From NCBI GenBank assembly GCA_025558095.1, contig JAIVFI010000032.1, positions 496,001 to 560,000 on the forward strand: 64,000 nt of DNA. Reading direction: 5' to 3'. A program made the position numbers and the translations under genes. Position 1 is the first letter of the stretch. Each line of letters opens with the position of its first letter. The stretch comes from Hyaloraphidium curvatum (taxonomy: Eukaryota > Monoblepharomycota > Hyaloraphidiomycetes > Hyaloraphidiales > Hyaloraphidiaceae). Positions 41,221 to 62,581 of the stretch are shown piece by piece. The notes under the pieces are model-generated. The model searched no databases. It was not told the origin of the DNA and saw only the letters and a program-made list of their open reading frames with translations.

Positions 41221-44200
41221 TCACGCCCCCCCAAACCCCCCGAACCCCATGTTGTGCCTTGAGATCATCTGCCCCGCCAGAAACGCGTTGGCCGCCGCCT
41301 CTTGCTCGTCCACCAGGAAGAGCCTGGCGTTGAAGTTCCGCCCGGCAACGTACCTCGCCATGGCATCAATCGGGTACAGGTGTCCGCCCGACATGACCCG
41401 CGTGAAGTACAGCGGCCGGTCGGTCGGGACGAGGGCGAGGTCGTCGACGTAGCTGTCGAGCACGATCGCGTAGTCGAGCGCGTAGCCGTCGCTGGGGAGG
41501 CCCGAGAGGAGGGAGTAGAAGCCCGCGACGTTGCCCGACAGATTCGAGACGCCCAGGGAGAGCACAACAACGTTGGGGAAGTGGTGCTTGAAGATGATGC
41601 GCAGTGCATGGAATGCGGCGGAGTAGTCCTCGAAGTAGCGTTGGAGGCCCTCAAGCGACACGCCGGTCCCATGATCCACCTGCACCGCAAACAGCGGTGT
41701 CTGCAGTGACGCCGCAAGAGCTGCAGCCCGCGGGCCCCAATACCGCTCGAAGTGATCAGCGATGCGGTTGACCGGGAGAGAGTGGCCCAAGGCCGCGCCG
41801 GTGTTGATGAGGAGAACCACCCGCGCCCCAGCGTCGGTCAGGGAGTTGATGATGGCTGGGTCATCAATGTCAATCACTCGCACCGCCGAAGCGCCGGCCG
41901 CTGCCAAGACCGACGGAGTGGTCCCGGGGATCATGTTGAAAGGGGGCGTGAACGAAAGGCCCATGGCAAAGCTGGAGGTGTAGAGCCCCCCTGGCACATA
42001 GGGCGGATAGTCGATCGGGCTGCCAAAAGTGGGACGCCGCGGGGTGGTCGTGCTTGTCGGCTGCCGAGTGGTGCTCCCCGACGTCGAAGATGCCGTGGCC
42101 GTCCGGCTCTGCGTCGTGGTCCGCGCCGTTGAAGATTGTGTGGCCGTCCGGCTGCTAGTCGCGACGCCCGGCAATGGTCCCGAGAAGCTCAGATCGATGG
42201 CGAACACCATCCCCCTCCAGTCCGCAGGCCCCGAGTCAAGGACCCCGTAAAGCCGCCCGTCGCTGCCCAGGGCAAGCTCCTTCTGCGGTATCGTGAAGGT
42301 TCCCAAGGGCAGCACGTCCATGCCGCTGACGAACTGTAGCGCGGTCTCGCGGACGAACCTGGCCACGCGCACCGCCACTGGGTTGGCGGCGGCGGGATCG
42401 ATCCGGAAGATGATGGCCCTGATGGGGAAGTAGTCCGTCTGGGCGATACCGTAGATGGCTCCATCGGTGGAGAGGAGGCTGGCGCGGGGGTAGCGGCCGT
42501 CGTCTAAGCCGAGGAAGTGGTATATGTTCTCCAGTCGCGTGCCGTTGAACCGCCAGACAGTTCCCGAGTTCGCTCCGCCGCCGAAGGTGGCGGTGCCGAT
42601 CACGGTGCCGTCCCCAAGAGGCAGGGGGCGCGTCGGCCTGCAAATCGGGCGTCAGAGTGTCGCACGCTGGGCGACGACGGTGCGTGCCTACCCGCAGCCC
42701 GTGTAGCTGTTCATGTGGGGAAGGAACGACTCGTCCCCGAAAAATGAATCCAGGATGGTCACTGTGCCGTCCGTCCCTATGCGGAACAACGTGCCGCAGT
42801 CCCCGAACCCACCGGCGCCCGCTGTCCCGTAAAGTAGGCCGTCCGGTCCTAAGGCGAGGCCAGAGCCAATGCCGTTCCCAGTCATGAAGGAGCTGAAGTT
42901 CGCAAGAACCGAGAAGCTCCCGTCTACGGCGATCCGGAACACGGAGCGCTCCGTGGTCCCGTAAATGGCCCCATCGGGCCCCACGACGAGCGGCGAGCGG
43001 GAGGGGTGGTCCAAGGATGCAAGCAGCGTGAGGGTGCCCCAGACCGTCACTCGGAACACCGCCCCAAATGCGCGCTCGCCTCCCATGGAGGTGGCCCCGT
43101 AGAGGTGACCGTCGGGTCCGACGACTGGGGCCGCGAGCGGCTCGGCACCGTTCAACCAGTTGAATGAGGCGATGGTGGTCACCTGGCCGGTGGGGGTGAG
43201 CCGAAAGACCGAGCCGCAGTCGCAGCCCGTGGTATTCCAGTTCGCGCCACCCATCCGCGTCGTGCCATACCAGTTGCCGTCGGGATGCTCGACCAGGCCC
43301 TGCGGCGCCCCACTGGATCTGTCGAAGCGCGCGACGATCGTCTGCGGAGGATGGCTAGAGTTAGCTTGGGGGCTCAAGGAGAGCTCGGCACGACGCACGG
43401 CACTGATGATCGGGGTCTGCGTGCGGGTCGAACGTGGCGTCTTTGATGTGCTGGTGGACCCCGTGCGGGACCTCGTTCTCGATCGAGTCGACATGGGAGT
43501 CGTTGTGATGGTTGTACGGGAGGTCGACGTGCTTCTTGCCGGCCTCGGCAGGCCCACGTCCACGACAAGAGCCATCCCCTCCCACCCCGCCGGCCCCGTG
43601 GTCGCAACGCCGTACAGCCGACCATCGCCCCCGAGGACCAGCTCGTGCTCAACAGTCCCGAAGGGCAGCACGTCGGTCCGCCCAGCGAAGAAAGGCAGCG
43701 CGCTCTCGGGGACGAGACCGACCACGGGCCCAAACCCCCTCCCGTCGGGGCTGATCCGGAAAACTTGCGCCGCATCGGAAGACGATCCGACAAAGGACAC
43801 CCCGTACAGCGCTCCGCCGGCGAACACGAGGCCCGCGGGCGGGCTGTGCCCGTCGGCGCCGGCAAAGTCGTGGAGCCTTTCGAGTCCCGTGCCGTTGAAC
43901 CGCCAGATTGTACCTCGCGACGACCTGCCACCGCTCAGAGTTGTACCGATAATGGAGCCGTCGGGAAGAACCAGAACTCGGTTCGGGCTGTAGGGCGCCG
44001 GGGAATGAGCTGAGTGGACCGAGACCACTTCGAACGACGACCTACCTGCAGCCAGTGAATGGTTGAATGCGCTCCACATCTTCCCCGCCTTGGAAATGGG
44101 CCAGGATCTCCCTCTCGCGACTGGGTCCGAACCTGAAGAGAACACCGCAGTCTGCTAGCCCGCCCTTGTAGGTCGTCCCGTAAAGCCACTTTCCGGCCCC

Positions 44201-46800
44201 AAAAGTGACCCCTCCGTAGACATCGTAGCCGGTTTCCACGGTGTCGAAACCCGCCAGCTGGATGAACCCGCCCTGCTGGGGCTGGACGAGGAACGCGCCC
44301 ATCTGCGTGCCTCCGTAGAGGTACCCGTCGGGGCCCAAAGTGAGCTGACCCCTACGGGGCGCGTCGAATGGGAATGGGGCGAGCACGGTGATCTCCCCCG
44401 AAGTGGTGACCCGGAAGACTGTTCCAGAATCCTGCGACCCGCCGCCCCTGGTCGTCGTGCCGTACAAATGCCTGTCGGCGCCGACGATCAAGCCGGCCTG
44501 CGGGTACGCGCCGTTCCACCACTCGAACGAGGCAATCGTGGAAAACTGCCCGTCGGGCGTTAGCCGGAACACTGTACCGCAGTCGCAGCCTGAAGTGTTC
44601 CAGTTCGCGCCGCCGATCCGCGTGGTGCCGTACCAGTTGCCGTCCGGGTGCTCTACCAGGCCCTGCGGGCGGCCGCGCGATCGATCGAAGCGGGCGAAGA
44701 TTGTCTGTGGAGGGCGAGGGAAATCAGAATATAGCATCGTAAACCCCCATAGAGGGACTTACGGCTGTGGCCACCCGCGTGGCTGTTGACGTCACCGTCG
44801 CCGTCCTGCTGGTTGTTGTCCGAGTGCTCCTTGAAGGCCGCGGCAGGTCCAAATCCAGCGCGAACACAGTCCCGCCCCACCCCTGCGGGCCAGAGGACGT
44901 GAATCCGTAAAGTCGGCCGTCGGCGCCCTGCACCAGCTCGTCCCCCGGGAGCCCGCCGGGGAGCACGGCGCCGCCCTGGCCAGGCGCCTCGCCGTTTGCA
45001 GTGAAGCTGACCACCCGCGCGAACCTCGATCCGTCGGGGCGCACCCGGAAGACCTGGCCCGCGGCCCCGTCGGCCCCCGCCCCGACGCCATACAGGGCGC
45101 CCGCGACGGGGACGACGCCCGCGGAGGGAAGCCCGCCGCGCTGCTCGTCGATCGTGACGAGGCGGCGGATCGCGGTGCCGTTGAAGACCCACACGCTGCC
45201 CCAGAGGGTGGAAAACTGGGGAATCCAGGGGATAAGGAACGATGACGCCGTGCCGACCAAAGAGCCGTCGGCGAGGGGATATGGTCGGGAGATTGGGCTG
45301 CGGGCGGAGGAAGATGAGCCGATGTGAGCAACAAGCGCGCGCCCAAAACTTACATGCACCCGACCGAAAGATCAAAATGAGCCAGCGTGGTCATGGACCC
45401 GTTCGTGGCGATCCTAAACAGAGTTCCGCAGCTTGGTCCGGGATCGTGGCGCGTCGTACCGTACAGTGACCCGTCCAAGCCGACGCTAAAGCCACCGACG
45501 AAGCTGAGCATGTCCCAAGGCCCATACCGCGCCAGCACGGTCCAATTGCCATCCATTGAGACCCGGAACACGGTCCGCGGGGTGACGCCGTAGAGAGCGC
45601 CGTCGGGCCCAAACACGAGCGGCGCTTGGGGGAAGGCCGAGGAGGCTCCGAAGGCGGGACGACGCGCGTCACCGGGCGTCATTCCCCATGTGAACGACGC
45701 AAGCACCGTGATCTCGCCACCCGTGGTGACCCGGACGACCGTCCCGACGTCGTGAGCACCGCCAACAAACGTGGTGCCGTACAGGTGGTCGTCCCCGCCG
45801 ACGATGAGGCCAGCGCGCGGGCTGGCTCCGTTTGTGCCGTTGAACGAGGCGATCGTCGACAACTGGCCGTCGGGCGTGAGGCGAAAGACGGTGCCGCAGT
45901 TGCAAGTTCCCGATCCACCAAACAGGGTGGTGCCGTACCAGTTGCCGTCCGGGTGCTCGGTGAGCCCCTCTGGTTGGGAGGGCAAAGCAAAGCGGGCGAG
46001 GACGGTCTGTGTCACGGGATGAGCGCCGGCCACAGGTCGGAGAGGAAGTTAAAGAACCCACCGGCGTGACGAGCACCGTCTCGATTGTGGTGGTGACCGT
46101 TCGTGACGTGGAAGAGGATCGGCTTGTCGACGAGCTCGTCGGCGTCCGGCTGGATGTCGTCACCGTCCTGGTCCTCGTCGTCCGAGTCAAAGACGTCGCC
46201 GTCCATGTGCTTGTCGATGCGGCGGTCAGGCTCGAGGAAGTAGCTGTCCGGCTCGTGCGGCTCAGGTTTGTCGTCTTCGCCATTTTGGTGCTTGTCGGGG
46301 TCCGGCTCGAAGAAGTGGGCGTCAGGCTGGTCGGAGTGAAGCTCGAGGACATGGTCGCCAGGTTGATCGAGGTGGTGCTGTTGGTGGTCCCCGGAGGAGG
46401 GATCGGGGAGGTCGTCGGCGGGACCGGGGGCGCCGGTGGAGGGGGCGGAGGAGGCGACGGGGGTGGCGGCGACGGGGGTGGGGGGGTCGGGGGCACGGGA
46501 GGCGGAGGAGGGGGAGGGGAAGGGGGGGGATAAGGCGGGACGGGGGGCGGAGGGGGTGGCGAAGGAGGTACCGGCGCTGGTGCCGTCGTGGGAGGCACTT
46601 GCTTCACCTGCACCGTCGTCCTGCGTCCGGTCGTCGTCGGCACGACCTTGCCCAGGGTCCGCCGGACCTTCTTGGTCGTAGTCTTCCGGCGCGTCGTGGT
46701 CCGCTTCTTCGTCCGGCGCTTCGAGGTGGTCTTCTTCTTGAGCTGCCGCGGCACCAGGCGGGGTCCAGCTCCTTGGTTATTTGCAACGGCATCCTTTGCC
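41221..46800 (-). CDS. Giant modular surface protein: GloVer-type repeats in three cassettes, GH17-like C-terminus
   Basis: Exons: up to about 46800-46062; 46006-45354; 45297-44763; 44704-44046; 43987-43399; 43341-42692; 42637-41221. All introns are GT-AG and all phases agree, giving about 1,750 residues. The first exon encodes a Lys/Arg/Thr-rich region, a Pro-rich region and a Ser/Thr region. Then come three cassettes, each with EHPDGNWYGTT, CDCGTVFRLTPDGQ, DGHLYG and FNGT motifs (tandem repeats of the Gloeobacter/Verrucomicrobia GloVer kind) and a Ser/Thr linker. The last about 270 residues (FTPPFNMIPGTTPSVLAAAG, AVRVIDIDDPAIINSLTDAG, VVLLIN) resemble the start of GH17 glucanases; a Glu pair is not obvious. 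A wall or surface role is inferred. The true 5' exon is unresolved. Confidence 0.8.
42030..43341 (-). repeat. GloVer cassette 3
   Basis: Exon A 43341-42692 starts TIVARFDRSSGAPQGLVEHP and ends in YTGC; exon B starts at 42637 with LGDGTVIGTATFGGG, FNGTRLENI and KELALGSDGRLYG. It continues through a Ser/Thr linker near 42030-42170 straight into the GH17-like domain. Confidence 0.8.
43399..44704 (-). repeat. GloVer cassette 2 (exon pair)
   Basis: Exon A 44704-44046 starts TIFARFDRSRGRPQGLVEHP and ends in FTGC; exon B 43987-43399 contains LPDGSIIGTTLSGG, FNGTGLERL, HELVLGGDGRLYG and a linker ending IISA. Exon A is nearly identical in its first 60 residues to that of cassette 3. Confidence 0.8.
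44763..46006 (-). repeat. GloVer cassette 1 (exon pair)
   Basis: Exon A 46006-45354 starts TVLARFALPSQPEGLTEHPD and ends in SVGC; exon B 45297-44763 contains LADGSLVGTASS, VFNGTAIRR, DELVQGADGRLYG and a Ser/Thr linker ending VATA. It is the most diverged of the three cassettes. Confidence 0.8.
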
Positions 46801-47226
46801 CGGGTACCCAATCAGCTCCTGCCCTACCCGAGCACCGTCCTTTCCGACCCACCTGGTTCGCGAGAGGTCCGGTATCGGGAGACGACGTCATTCCTGTCCC
46901 CCGACGCGTCTCCTCTCCTCCCATCGCCGTCGAGGACGCGAGAGGGCAGCAAACGGCGGCGGCATCGGTTCCGGAAGTGTCCTGGGCAAGCCAAGCGGAC
47001 GGCGGGCACGGCGGGCACCAGTCGCGGCGGGACGCGTCCCGTTCGCGCTCCGCCCCATCGAATCGGCTTTCCCGCCACTGGTGCTGAATCTCCGATTCCG
47101 GAGCATTGCTGGAGCCCAAGGATACGGGGCAGCAGCAGCCGGCATCGGGCAAAGACGCGCTGTGGGAGGAAGGTGCGGTCGGTCAGTCAGCCTGTCTCCC
47201 AATTCCGCAACTCCCCAGGGCCCCAC

Positions 47227-47366
47227 CTGCAAGCGGGGCCAACGATCCAAAGTCCCGGAAACGGTCCAACAAGCGATCGGTGGTTGCCAGGCTCGGCGAC
47301 GGCAAGGAGGATCGGAATGCAGATTGAGAGAAGGGCCACTGCGGCGAGCGGCAGCGTGGGCGCCAT
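47227..47366 (-). other. Candidate signal-peptide exon of the giant GloVer gene
   Basis: The ATG at 47366 opens MAPTLPLAAVALLSICIPIL, LAVAEPGNHRS, an excellent signal peptide, and runs to a CAG|GTGGGG donor-like site at 47227/47226. It lies upstream on the same strand as the GloVer gene, whose first visible exon has no ATG of its own. The connection is a guess. Confidence 0.35.
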
Positions 47367-53369: not shown

Positions 53370-55927
53370 ATGCGCGTCCTGCTCACGCTCCTCGGGCTCG
53401 CCGGCGCCGCGGCGGTGACCGCCTCCGCGGCCCCGGCGGTGCGGCCGCGCCAGCTCGTCGAGGGCGCCGCGGAGTTGTTGTCCGCCGAGGTCGGCGCGCT
53501 GACGGCCGAGCGGGCCGCGGGCGGCGACGCCGGGCTGCGCGCGCTGCTCGCGGCCGGCGACGTCGATTGCCCCGACTTTGTGCTCGGCGCCGCCACCGAC
53601 GAGAGCCCCGCGCTGCCGTACCTCTCCGCCACCGCCTGCGAGCGCCCCCTCGGCAGGCTGCACTTCGCAAACGGGTCCGCCATGGTCCCCTCCGAGGCGT
53701 GGCAGCCGTGCTACGCCAACCAGAAGTTCGAGATCCTGCGCGACGACGGCACCTGGAAGGAGGCGCCCGACCCGACGCTCTACACCGAGCCCGCAAAGGG
53801 CCCGCAGGACCCGGCAGGGCCCGCGCAGGTGGGCCGCATCCCGCCCGCCGCCGCACCCCCCAGTTGCTGATGTTATTCCGCAGCTCGACATGAGGTTCTA
53901 CGTGCACCGCCGCGACAGGGACGTGCTCGAGCGCGCAAACTGCCAAACCGAGGCCGAGGGATCGACTCAGGCGCCCAGCTGGTACACCGCCTCCCTGCAG
54001 GGCCGCCTCCTGCGCCTCCATGTGCAGTGCAACAGCGGTCGCACGCGCGGCGACCTGTACTTTGTGGTGGGTGCACGGGCCGGGTGGCTTCCGTGCCGCA
54101 CGTCCCTTGCTCACTCGCTCGCCGTCCCCCGCAGTGGTCCCACCCCGCGACCGACGGCGTCGGCATCAAGAGCCTCACCTGCTCCGGCGGCAAGGTCACC
54201 GGCTACACCCTCGTCGGCGACGGCGCCCCCGAGCCCCCGGCAGAGACCACCCCTTCCGTCCCGGCCGAAACGACCCCGGCTGCCCCGGCAACGACTGAAG
54301 CACCCCCGGCCACCACCGAAGCACCCGTCGAGACCGCCACGCTCACCACCGTCTCGGGCACCCGCACCGTGTTTGTTCCCTGCCCCACCATCCCGGTCTC
54401 GACCGACGGCCGCTGCGGCTCGAGCTTCGGCACGCGCTGCGAGGACGGCATCTGCTGCTCGCGCTGGGGCTACTGCCAGGGTACGTGCATCGCGATGCAT
54501 GGTCGTGCGAGCGGGAGCTGATTCGCGCCCCTCCGCGACCCGCGAACCCCCATCCGACGCATGCAGACAACGGCGGCAACGCTGGTATGCACCCTTTGTG
54601 CACCACACGCCCTCCCCCGCTAACCTCGATGCACCCACAGGCGTGCCCTGGTGCGGTGTCGGCTGCCAGGTCGGCTTCGGCAAGTGCCACAAGCGCCCCG
54701 CCCTCGCCTCCGTCTCGGACGTCTGCAACCCGCACGGCACCCCGACCTCGGCCGCCTGGTCCGCCACCACCGTGTCGGCATCCACCCCGGTGTACAACCC
54801 CTGCCCCGACCTGCCCGTGGAGACCGACGGGCGGTGCGGGCCCGACTTTGGCGGCGCGAAGTGCTCGGACGGGTACTGCTGCTCGCAGTACGGTTACTGC
54901 CAGGACGACGGCGACGATTCCGGTTCGTTGACGCGCGTTGTGCATCCGTTTCGATTGGTGCTGACCGTGTTTGTGCGCAGGCGAGGCGTGGTGCGGCGAC
55001 GGATGCATCCTCGGCTACGGCAAGTGCTTCGTCGGCGCCACCGTCGTCAGCGACTTCTGCCCCGGCTCGACGACCACCGACGCCCCCGCCGCGACGACCG
55101 AAGCCCCGGCCCCGACCAGCGATGCTCCTGCTGCCACCACGGATGCCCCGGCCCCGACCAGCGACGCCCCCGCCCCGACCAGCGACGCCCCGGCCGAAAC
55201 CACCCCTGCCGCACCCGAGACCAGTGCCCCGGCTCCCGAGGAGACCACCCCGGCCGCAGCAACCACGGACGACGTCGCCAGCACCACCGCGTCCGCCGGC
55301 GTCGAGGAGACCAGCGCCCCGGCTCCCGAGTCGACGTCGGCCCCTGAGACGTCGTCGGAGCCCGCGCCGGCGACGAGCGAAGCCCCAGCGACCACGGATG
55401 CGCCCGCGGCTACCACGGCCGCGGAGGAGACGACCTCGGTGGGTGTTTGTACGTCGGGTGTCGCCGGCGTGCGTCTGACACAATCGTCTGCAGGCTGCCG
55501 AGACCAGCGCCGCCGTTGAGACCAGCGCCGCCGTCGAGACCAGCGCCGCCGCGGAGACCAGCGCCGCAAGCACCGAAGCCGCCAGCGAAACGACGTCGGC
55601 GGCTGCGGAGACCAGCGCCCCGGCCTCCGAGACATCTTCGGCCGCTCCCGAAGCCACGTCCGAGGCCGCATCGGAAACCACGTCGGCAGCTGCCACCGAT
55701 GCCCCCACGACCACGGAGGCCCCGTCGGAGGTGCGCATCGTCGATGTTGTTCGCGGGCGGCGATCTGACTCGCGTTCCAGACCAGCGCCGCCGAAACCGC
55801 GACCGAAGCCGCAACCACAACCGAAGCAGCATCCTCCACGGAGGAAGCCACGACCACCGCGGTTGAAGCGAGCTCGACGGAGGAGGCGACCACTTCTGCC
55901 GAAGCCACGGAGACGGCCACCCCTTAG
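53370..55927 (+). CDS. Secreted chitin-binding mucin-like protein
   Basis: Seven or so exons. The start MRVLLTLLGLAGAAAVTASA is a signal peptide. An N-terminal domain (LSATACERPLGRLHFANGSA, NQKFEILRDDGTWKEAP, LDMRFYVHRRDRDVLERANC) is unrecognised. Two hevein-type chitin-binding modules follow: DGRCGSSFGTRCEDGICCSR, WGYCQ ... PWCGVGCQVGFGKC, and DGRCGPDFGGAKCSDGYCCS, QYGYCQ ... WCGDGCILGYGKC; each is cut by an intron after the YCQ region. The rest, from about 55060, is Ala/Pro/Thr/Ser-rich (TTDAPAATTEAPAPTSDAP, then ETSAAVETSAAAETS) to the stop at 55925-55927, a mucin-like stalk probably heavily O-glycosylated. No GPI signal is evident. It is likely anchored to or coats chitinous wall. Confidence 0.85.
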
Positions 55928-59996: not shown

Positions 59997-62581
59997 TTAG
60001 TTGGATTGACCCTCGCTGCCATCCGACGAATACTGCAGGTGGTGCACCGACTTGCCCGCGGGGCTGGCAAACAGCAGCGCCGCCCCGGCCTCGCCCACCT
60101 CCACCTCGAGCTCGAACAGCCCGCGCTTGCCGTCGCTCTGGACAACGGCGTAGCGCTCCGGCTCGCTGCCGGGCTTGAGGATCCGGTAGACGGCGATCTC
60201 GACGGCCTCGCCGGGGGGTTCGGCGACCCCGAGGACCTTGGCCCGCTTGCCCGTCGTCGTGGTCCCGCCGAGCACCGCCTCGCCGTTGACGCCGAGCAGG
60301 TACGGCGCCCGCGGAACAACCTTGTCCGTGACGACGGTGACTTCGTACGGCCTGCCCTCGCCCAGCCCGTCGACGTTGAACCGTATCTTGTGCGTCTCGC
60401 CGGGCTCCAGCACCTTGCCGGCGTCGTAGACCGCGCCGCCGCCCGAGCCGAGGTCGAACCGGTCCACTTCGGTGCCGTCGACCATAACGGAGCACGGCTT
60501 GCCGGCATGGTCGCGCGACGTCGAGACCGAAAGCCACGGGTCGCGGGGCACTTTGAGCTCCAGCGCGGGCGAGCCATCGTCCCGCACCAGCCTGCCCGAG
60601 GCGTAGGCCACGTACGCGGGCATCTTGCTTTCCTTTTCCGTGCCCCGCACCGAGACGAGGTATGGCTCCGATCGCGCTCCGTTGGCGACCAGTACGACCT
60701 CGTAATCCCCGTCCCCGATCTGGTCCGCCCGGTAGCGGAACCGCGCGTCCCTGCCCGCGATCGCGGTGCCGACCCAGCGCCACGCCCCCGCGTCGCGGAC
60801 GACGATGTAGACGAGGGTGCCCTCGCCGCCGCCCGAGGTGCCCACCACGAGCGCGGAGGCGCTGCCCTCGAGCGAGACCTCGAGGCCGTCGGGGGTGTTG
60901 CCGCCGAAGGATTCGAGCTCGGGCGCCTTGTCCGCGCCGGAAGACTGCGGGATCTCGACCTCGCCGCCGGCTGTGGTGCCGTCCCCCGCCTTGGTTTCGC
61001 CGCCCGAATCGGCCCCCTTGTCGCCGTCCTTGAGGAAGTGGTGCGCGCGCTTCCCCCCCGGACCGGCAAACACGAACGTCGCCCCCGCCTCGCCGACCTC
61101 GAGCTCGATCTCGAACCTCCCGCGCTCGTCGGTCTCGGCCGCCCCGACCTCCTCGGGCTTCGCGTACGGCTTGGCGATCCGGTAGACCGTCACCTTGTCC
61201 TTCCGGCCGGCGGGCTCGGCGATCCCGCGCGCGGCAAACTTTTCCCCGGAGACGGAGGTCAGGCTGCCGACCACCGCGCGGTCGCCAGCCCGCACGAGGT
61301 AAGGCGGGACTTCCTTGATATCCTTGGAGGCCTCGACGAGGTACGTGTCCGAAAAGCCAAAGGTGAGGAAGAACAGCTTCCGCGCCTCCCCGGGCTTGAA
61401 CATCCCCTCCGCATCCTCCCAGCTGAACGAGCCGTCGGGCCCGGCGGTGCCCTGTCCGACCTGCTCGCCGTCCACGTACACGCCGTAGCCTGCGTTCGGG
61501 GTGCCGAGCCCGAAAAAGACCGGGTTCGGCGGGGCGACGATGGAGGTGGGGTCCTTGGGATCGGGGCGGCGGCCCGAGACGGAGCGGAGGGAGGGGAGCC
61601 GCGGCCCGTCGGGGACCTCGACGACGACCTTATACGATTTGGAGGAGCCCGGGGTGCTCGAGACCCGGAGCTCGTGGCTGCCGGACTCGCCGACGGGCCC
61701 GGCGTCGAACTCGAATGCGCCCCCGTCGTCGGCGATGGCGGTGCCGATCCACTGGCCGTCCACCGTGAGGTAGATGAGAGAGCCCTGCGGCGCATCGGCG
61801 GTGCCGGAGATGCGGGCGCCGCGGCCGTCCAGGGTGACGACGCCGTCCCGGTCGGGGGCGGAGCCTTCGACGTCGGTGAGCGAGGGGGCGTTGGTGTCGG
61901 AAGCGGGTGGGGGCGGCGTGGGCGGGCGGGGTAGGGGAGTCGCGAGGGATGCGAGGGCATTGATGCACCTGCAGCTGCCCGAGGACCTGCGGGATGCAAG
62001 CCAAGGAGGGGGATGCGGCGGGCGGGTCAGACATGCATGCCACGTGAGCGCATTGGGGGCGGGACTCACCAATCGGCTGTAAACATGTCCTGCCTCCTGA
62101 AGAGGCGCTTGGTGGGGACTTGAACCGCGACGGGCGTACCGTCGGGCACCACCATGCCGTCGGCTGTCACCTCGACGTAGCCGTCCTCCGCGGGCTCGAC
62201 AATAATCTCGGGCTTCAGGGCCCAGCGTGCCTTGTAGTCGATGCAGATTGTGACGAGGTCAATGGTGCCGCCCGCACCGAGGGAGGCGTCGGCGGCCTGG
62301 AGGGCGTAGGAGCCCGGGCGGCCGGGCACCGGGACCAGCGCAGCGGGCCCGTCCGCCGAGGCCAGCAGCCCGCCTTCGACGCGCAGCACGCCGCCATAGC
62401 GCCCGGCGATGTCGGCGGGGTTTCGCAGCGAGACGGCGGAGCACTGGCGCCACAGCGCGGGGGAGCCGGGCGCGGGGCGCGGGCCCGACAGCGGCGTGAC
62501 GCGCACGTCGGCGTGCCACGACGGGCGAGCGAAGGCGGTGCCGAGGAGAGCGAGCAGCACGAGAGCCGCGAGGGCCGCCAT
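59997..62581 (-). CDS. Secreted beta-sandwich repeat protein with internal duplication
   Basis: Two exons, 62581-62070 and 61986-59997 (intron GTGAGTCC...CCCGCAG, phase 2), 833 residues. A signal peptide (MAALAALVLLALLGTAFARP) is followed by a beta-rich N-terminal domain. A Pro-rich linker at the start of exon 2 precedes a series of Ig/fibronectin-like beta units: GSLIYLTVDGQWIGTAIADD, GSHELRVSSTPGSSKSYKVV, KVTVYRIAKPYAKPEEVGAA, RFEIELEVGEAGATFVFAGP. The block AEPAGRKDKVTVYRIAKP...GKRAHHF returns near the end as AEPPGEAVEIAVYRILKP...GKSVHHL. Asp/Gly-rich loops recall bacterial adhesin domains. An extracellular structural or adhesive role is inferred; no catalytic motif is seen. Confidence 0.75.

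Follow-up and report, generated by a model that had tools for sequence, protein, structure and literature searches.

A gene on the minus strand of the window (the whole 64,000-nt stretch of Hyaloraphidium curvatum DNA analysed here) is interpreted as encoding a secreted, stalked extracellular protein that carries three GloVer β-propellers and binds in the manner of an adhesin (probability roughly 0.6). The full gene model comprises nine exons and 1893 aa, and its upstream part is predicted from splice signals. The three propellers correspond to three copies of a two-exon cassette, and the protein ends in an orphan domain.

Gene Model and Cassette Architecture

Across positions 41221–46800, the removal of six GT–AG introns (54–58 nt) leaves a single open frame on the minus strand that is free of stops up to 41221. 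Exon 3 of the full model (46062–46793) encodes an N-terminal stalk of 244 aa that is basic, Pro-rich, and Ser/Thr-rich (38% S+T, 23% P). Cassette 1 follows, with exon A (45354–46006) encoding repeats 1–4 of propeller 1 and exon B (44763–45297) encoding repeats 5–7 and a 27-aa Ser/Thr linker. Cassette 2 is built in the same way (exon A, 44046–44704, repeats 1–4 of propeller 2; exon B, 43399–43987, repeats 5–7 and a 50-aa Ser/Thr linker). In cassette 3, exon A (42692–43341) encodes repeats 1–4 of propeller 3, and part B (42180–42637, repeats 5–7) forms the start of a 1417-nt last exon that continues into a Ser/Thr linker (42022–42179, about 54 aa, 52% S+T) and the C-terminal domain (41221–42021, about 266 aa and the stop codon). 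Exons A1, B1, A2, B2, and A3 are 653, 535, 659, 589, and 650 nt long, respectively, and the linkers between and after the propellers range from 27 to 54 aa with 52–54% Ser+Thr.

The six introns measure 55, 56, 58, 58, 57, and 54 nt in order, and alternate between phases 0 and 2. The phase-0 introns (46007–46061, at the stalk/propeller boundary; 44705–44762; and intron 5, 43342–43398) lie directly before TVLARF, TIFARF, and TIVARF, with which the A exons begin; the phase-2 introns within the cassettes (45298–45353; 43988–44045; and intron 6, 42638–42691) follow a Gly-Cys pair. The sequence-only reading had described three two-exon cassettes with introns at corresponding places, phase 0 before T-[VI]-x-ARF and phase 2 after Gly-Cys, and splicing of the six introns reproduces this anatomy; the repeat motifs that it quoted also hold as stated, with one deviation in cassette 3, which reads CGSVFRLTPTGQ (S for T).

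The lengths of introns 5 and 6 are multiples of three. Intron 6 contains in-frame TAG and TGA codons. Intron 5 is stop-free in frame, such that the gene would stay open if it were retained, and the case for its removal therefore comes from the homologous introns of the other cassettes. Reference introns were taken from two chitin synthase genes of the same genome (31.9 Mb in 55 contigs; the window is ~67% GC), which matches Chitin_synth_2 strongly (best exon 609 bits); homology with the Pfam profile fixed their positions. These reference introns are 55–60 nt long, with GTGAGC, GTACGT, or GTGGGT donors and CTGAC branch points, and the introns of the GloVer gene match them in length, donors, and CTGAC-type branch points.

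The stalk exon, with which an earlier model of the gene began, lacks an in-frame ATG close to its 5′ end. The start of the gene is probably at about 47366, with two additional exons, the first of which would encode a signal peptide. The ATG at 47366 opens MAPTLPLAAVALLSICIPILLAVA, a signal-peptide-like stretch. Proposed exon 1 (47227–47366) would consist of this start codon and hydrophobic N-terminal segment, and would end at the donor CAG/GTGGGG in phase 2. A proposed intron (47226–47160, 67 nt, with a CTGACTGAC branch point and a CACAG acceptor) would join it to exon 2 (46853–47159), a Cys-containing open frame without a known domain, which a second proposed intron (46852–46794, 59 nt, CTGAT and AAAG) would connect in phase 0 to the stalk. 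Both joins keep the reading frame.

Age of the Triplication and Selection on the Cassettes

The three cassettes share 46–51% protein identity, and introns at corresponding cassette sites are no more similar to each other than are shuffled sequences. Thus, the proposed triplication of a two-exon cassette together with its introns stands, as an old duplication rather than chance similarity or an assembly repeat. The duplicated unit is flanked on both sides by phase-0 introns, a symmetric arrangement under which copying preserves the reading frame. In a small tree, cassettes 2 and 3 of the window gene are closest (95/95), and a single clade of all three has weak support (52/24). Between cassettes, dN/dS is 0.39–0.49 with an excess of third-position changes, values that are rough at such divergence; purifying selection acts on the cassette protein sequence.

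The stop-free intron 5, and a stalk exon that lacks a nearby in-frame ATG, could also be expected if the stretch held decayed or mis-joined separate genes. This reading is improbable: the six splices together yield a single frame, dN/dS stays below 0.5, and the splice signals are those of the chitin synthase introns in this genome.

GloVer Repeats and the Predicted Propeller Fold

Cassettes 1 and 2 match NCBIfam TIGR03803 at 197.8 and 182.6 bits, respectively, against a curated cut-off of 44 bits, and single repeats in the cassette 3 region exceed this cut-off in a genome scan. The assignment of the gene to the GloVer family, and its description as a multi-exon fungal GloVer gene, are thus upheld by these matches and by the open spliced frame. 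A custom repeat profile detected 6, 7, and 7 units in cassettes 1–3, the seventh of cassette 1 being visible by alignment, and the blades are divided in each cassette between exon A (four) and exon B (three).

A β-propeller had been expected for the repeats, and structure prediction agrees. The AlphaFold2 model of cassette 3, computed from a thin five-row alignment (cassette 3 and four other rows) that included 18 residues of read-through intron 6, is a closed seven-bladed β-propeller (pTM 0.79, mean pLDDT 70.8). Solved propellers align with the model from end to end: CylK at Z 30.6 (VIA; 331 residues, 3.1 Å), virginiamycin B lyase at Z 29.3 (284 residues, 2.6 Å), YncE at Z 28.7, and WD40 proteins at about 27. 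The top Foldseek matches are designed propellers. Each cassette, with its seven repeats, would form one seven-bladed GloVer β-propeller.

The C-Terminal Domain

The C-terminal ~266 aa are best treated, from their sequence, as an orphan domain. The sequence-only reading had called this domain GH17-like and had proposed glucan remodelling as one role of the protein. Such a fusion, in which GloVer propellers would be joined to a glucanase or transglucosidase acting in the remodelling of wall glucan, is very improbable. To the eye, the domain alternates β- and α-elements, with short strands that may recall GH17, and its single-sequence model alternates helices and strands, albeit at an uninformative pLDDT of 32. 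Against this, no Pfam family matches the domain at E ≤ 10, and phmmer finds no relative of it in the PDB, GH17 structures included. A profile built by hand from five GH17 sequences scores its members at 332–419 bits and does not list the domain (some shuffled sequences reach 4.1), and hhalign against GH17 gives a probability of 0.3. None of the five Glu residues occurs in a GNE/GSE acid–base or E[STA]GW nucleophile context. Likeness to GH17 glucanases (PF00332) is thus limited to a visual β–α pattern; GH17 membership was rejected on sequence grounds, and the remodelling role, which depended on it, is likewise not supported.

The genome holds no second copy of the domain. A PF00332 scan of the same genome returned no match, but the controls gave none either, so the blank result carries no weight as to absence. 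In the viral contigs scanned, no detectable relative of the propeller or of the C-terminal domain was present.

GloVer Paralogues in the Same Genome

Five contigs, that of the window among them, carry GloVer repeats, and six further GloVer genes were located (one on contig C35, two each on C16 and C26, and one on C17); the window gene thus belongs to a small, expanded family. A multi-exon fungal gene of this kind had looked undescribed in the sequence-only reading; within this genome it has company. Complete cassettes of the paralogues contain seven repeats, and seven per unit is the rule in nearly every fungal copy. Most paralogues have Ser/Thr linkers, and their N-termini are hydrophobic and signal-like. 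Cassettes from the window, C35, and C16 form one group in the small tree (97/99), with C26 and C17 unplaced.

The C35 gene (281500–288500) is a double-cassette gene without internal introns, and the 92% identity of its cassettes suggests an independent or homogenised duplication. On C16 (590500–600400), two inverted GloVer genes are divergently transcribed; their first cassettes are 90% identical and their second cassettes strongly different, which suggests that a single part was recently copied or converted. Both the C35 gene and the C16 first cassettes differ from the window gene in lacking internal introns. The two paralogous C26 genes (185000–190500 and 198000–203800) lie about 13 kb apart; like the window gene, they carry a phase-0 intron where linker and propeller meet, here a few residues farther upstream, and a proprotein-convertase P-like domain may precede the propeller (weak sub-cut-off matches, E 0.008 and 0.17). 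None of the paralogues has the C-terminal orphan domain of the window gene.

Two other frames in the window were noted. An open frame at 59997–62258 (minus strand) matches the bacterial Ig-like domain Big_6 (E 4e-7), with the NF033510 adhesin-repeat model below cut-off, and is another bacterial-type extracellular module in this fungus. An open frame at 53503–55347 (plus strand) has a weak match to a chitin recognition domain (PF00187, just below cut-off). A search for IFT57 gave only a sub-cut-off match, which was also obtained in archaeal controls.

Origin of the Fungal Genes

Descriptions of the GloVer repeat family come from bacteria. Among bacterial loci, the best one found here encodes an acidobacterial protein of 2765 aa with four groups of seven GloVer repeats, 34–35% identical to a fungal cassette; relatives were present in 9 of the 119 genomes sampled from the acidobacterial phylum. 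The same locus (contig C64, 316000–327000) has a different repeat array at the N-terminus of the protein. Recent bacterial transfer or contamination could account for a bacterial-type gene with acidobacterial relatives at this identity, but is scarcely credible: the gene has spliceosomal introns and Ser/Thr linkers, paralogues lie on four other contigs, and the cassettes have diverged by about 50%. These features argue for long residence in the fungus, with which an ancient bacterial transfer is compatible.

Tentatively, and with slightly less assurance than even odds would warrant, we suggest that the fungal genes represent a eukaryotic GloVer branch that was anciently acquired from bacteria, and that duplication of a phase 0–0 exon module remodelled it in the fungus into stalked surface proteins with several propellers, with one member gaining a new C-terminal domain.

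Proposed Function

In the proposed mechanism, the putative signal peptide would direct secretion, and the basic, Pro- and Ser/Thr-rich stalk and the linkers, which are probably O-glycosylated, would space the propellers. The three propellers would have arisen by tandem duplication of the module bounded by phase-0 introns. As rigid discs, they would most likely serve as multivalent ligand-binding heads, held off the wall by the stalks in an adhesin-like arrangement. A role in wall or surface binding or adhesion is plausible. No known surface anchor was found, and no GPI-like tail was seen in the protein.

Some β-propellers are enzymes, and a catalytic role is thus possible. Instead of serving as adhesive heads, the propellers could catalyse reactions or process ligands, like those of CylK or virginiamycin B lyase, and the best structural neighbours of the model include the CylK propeller and streptogramin lyases. 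We consider this unlikely, as identity to these enzymes is 14–16%, many proteins that are not enzymes, among them WD40 proteins and RACK1, have this fold with almost equal Z, and three tandem copies on Ser/Thr stalks would suit avidity better than catalysis.

If transcribed as modelled, the gene would extend a repeat family known from bacteria to a fungus, and would provide a clean case in which a protein grew as a symmetric phase-0 exon module was duplicated; bacterial-type propellers would thereby have become a stalked surface protein of a fungus. The adhesin-like protein proposed here would also be a concrete target for asking what GloVer propellers bind, a question not addressed in the literature searched; that search covered a limited paper collection in which no mention of GloVer repeats was found, and says nothing beyond it.

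Comparison With Known Systems

The virginiamycin B lyase and CylK propellers (PDB 2z2n and 7ron) share the fold over the full cassette 3 model (Z about 29–31), with no evidence of a common function. The closest counterparts by repeat type are the bacterial TIGR03803 proteins (Gloeo_Verruco; "choice-of-anchor tandem repeat GloVer-containing proteins" in NCBIfam), with which the fungal gene shares repeats of ~50 residues of the form DG-x-x-YGTT...GG...GTVFR..., and seven repeats per unit; the putative signal peptide of the fungal protein would be a further common feature. The bacterial GloVer genes found here are intronless and have bacterial partners such as Ig-like-looking domains, whereas the fungal gene has spliceosomal introns, Ser/Thr stalks, and an orphan C-terminal domain. 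The acidobacterial 2765-aa protein resembles the fungal one in having several seven-repeat propellers in tandem (4 × 7), and tandem propellers are thus not unique to the fungus; unlike the fungal gene, it has Ig-like-looking spacers between the propellers and no introns. GloVer repeats in bacteria are known, and tandem propellers were found here in an acidobacterium; what appears to be new is a fungal, intron-bearing, triple-propeller variant of this repeat family.
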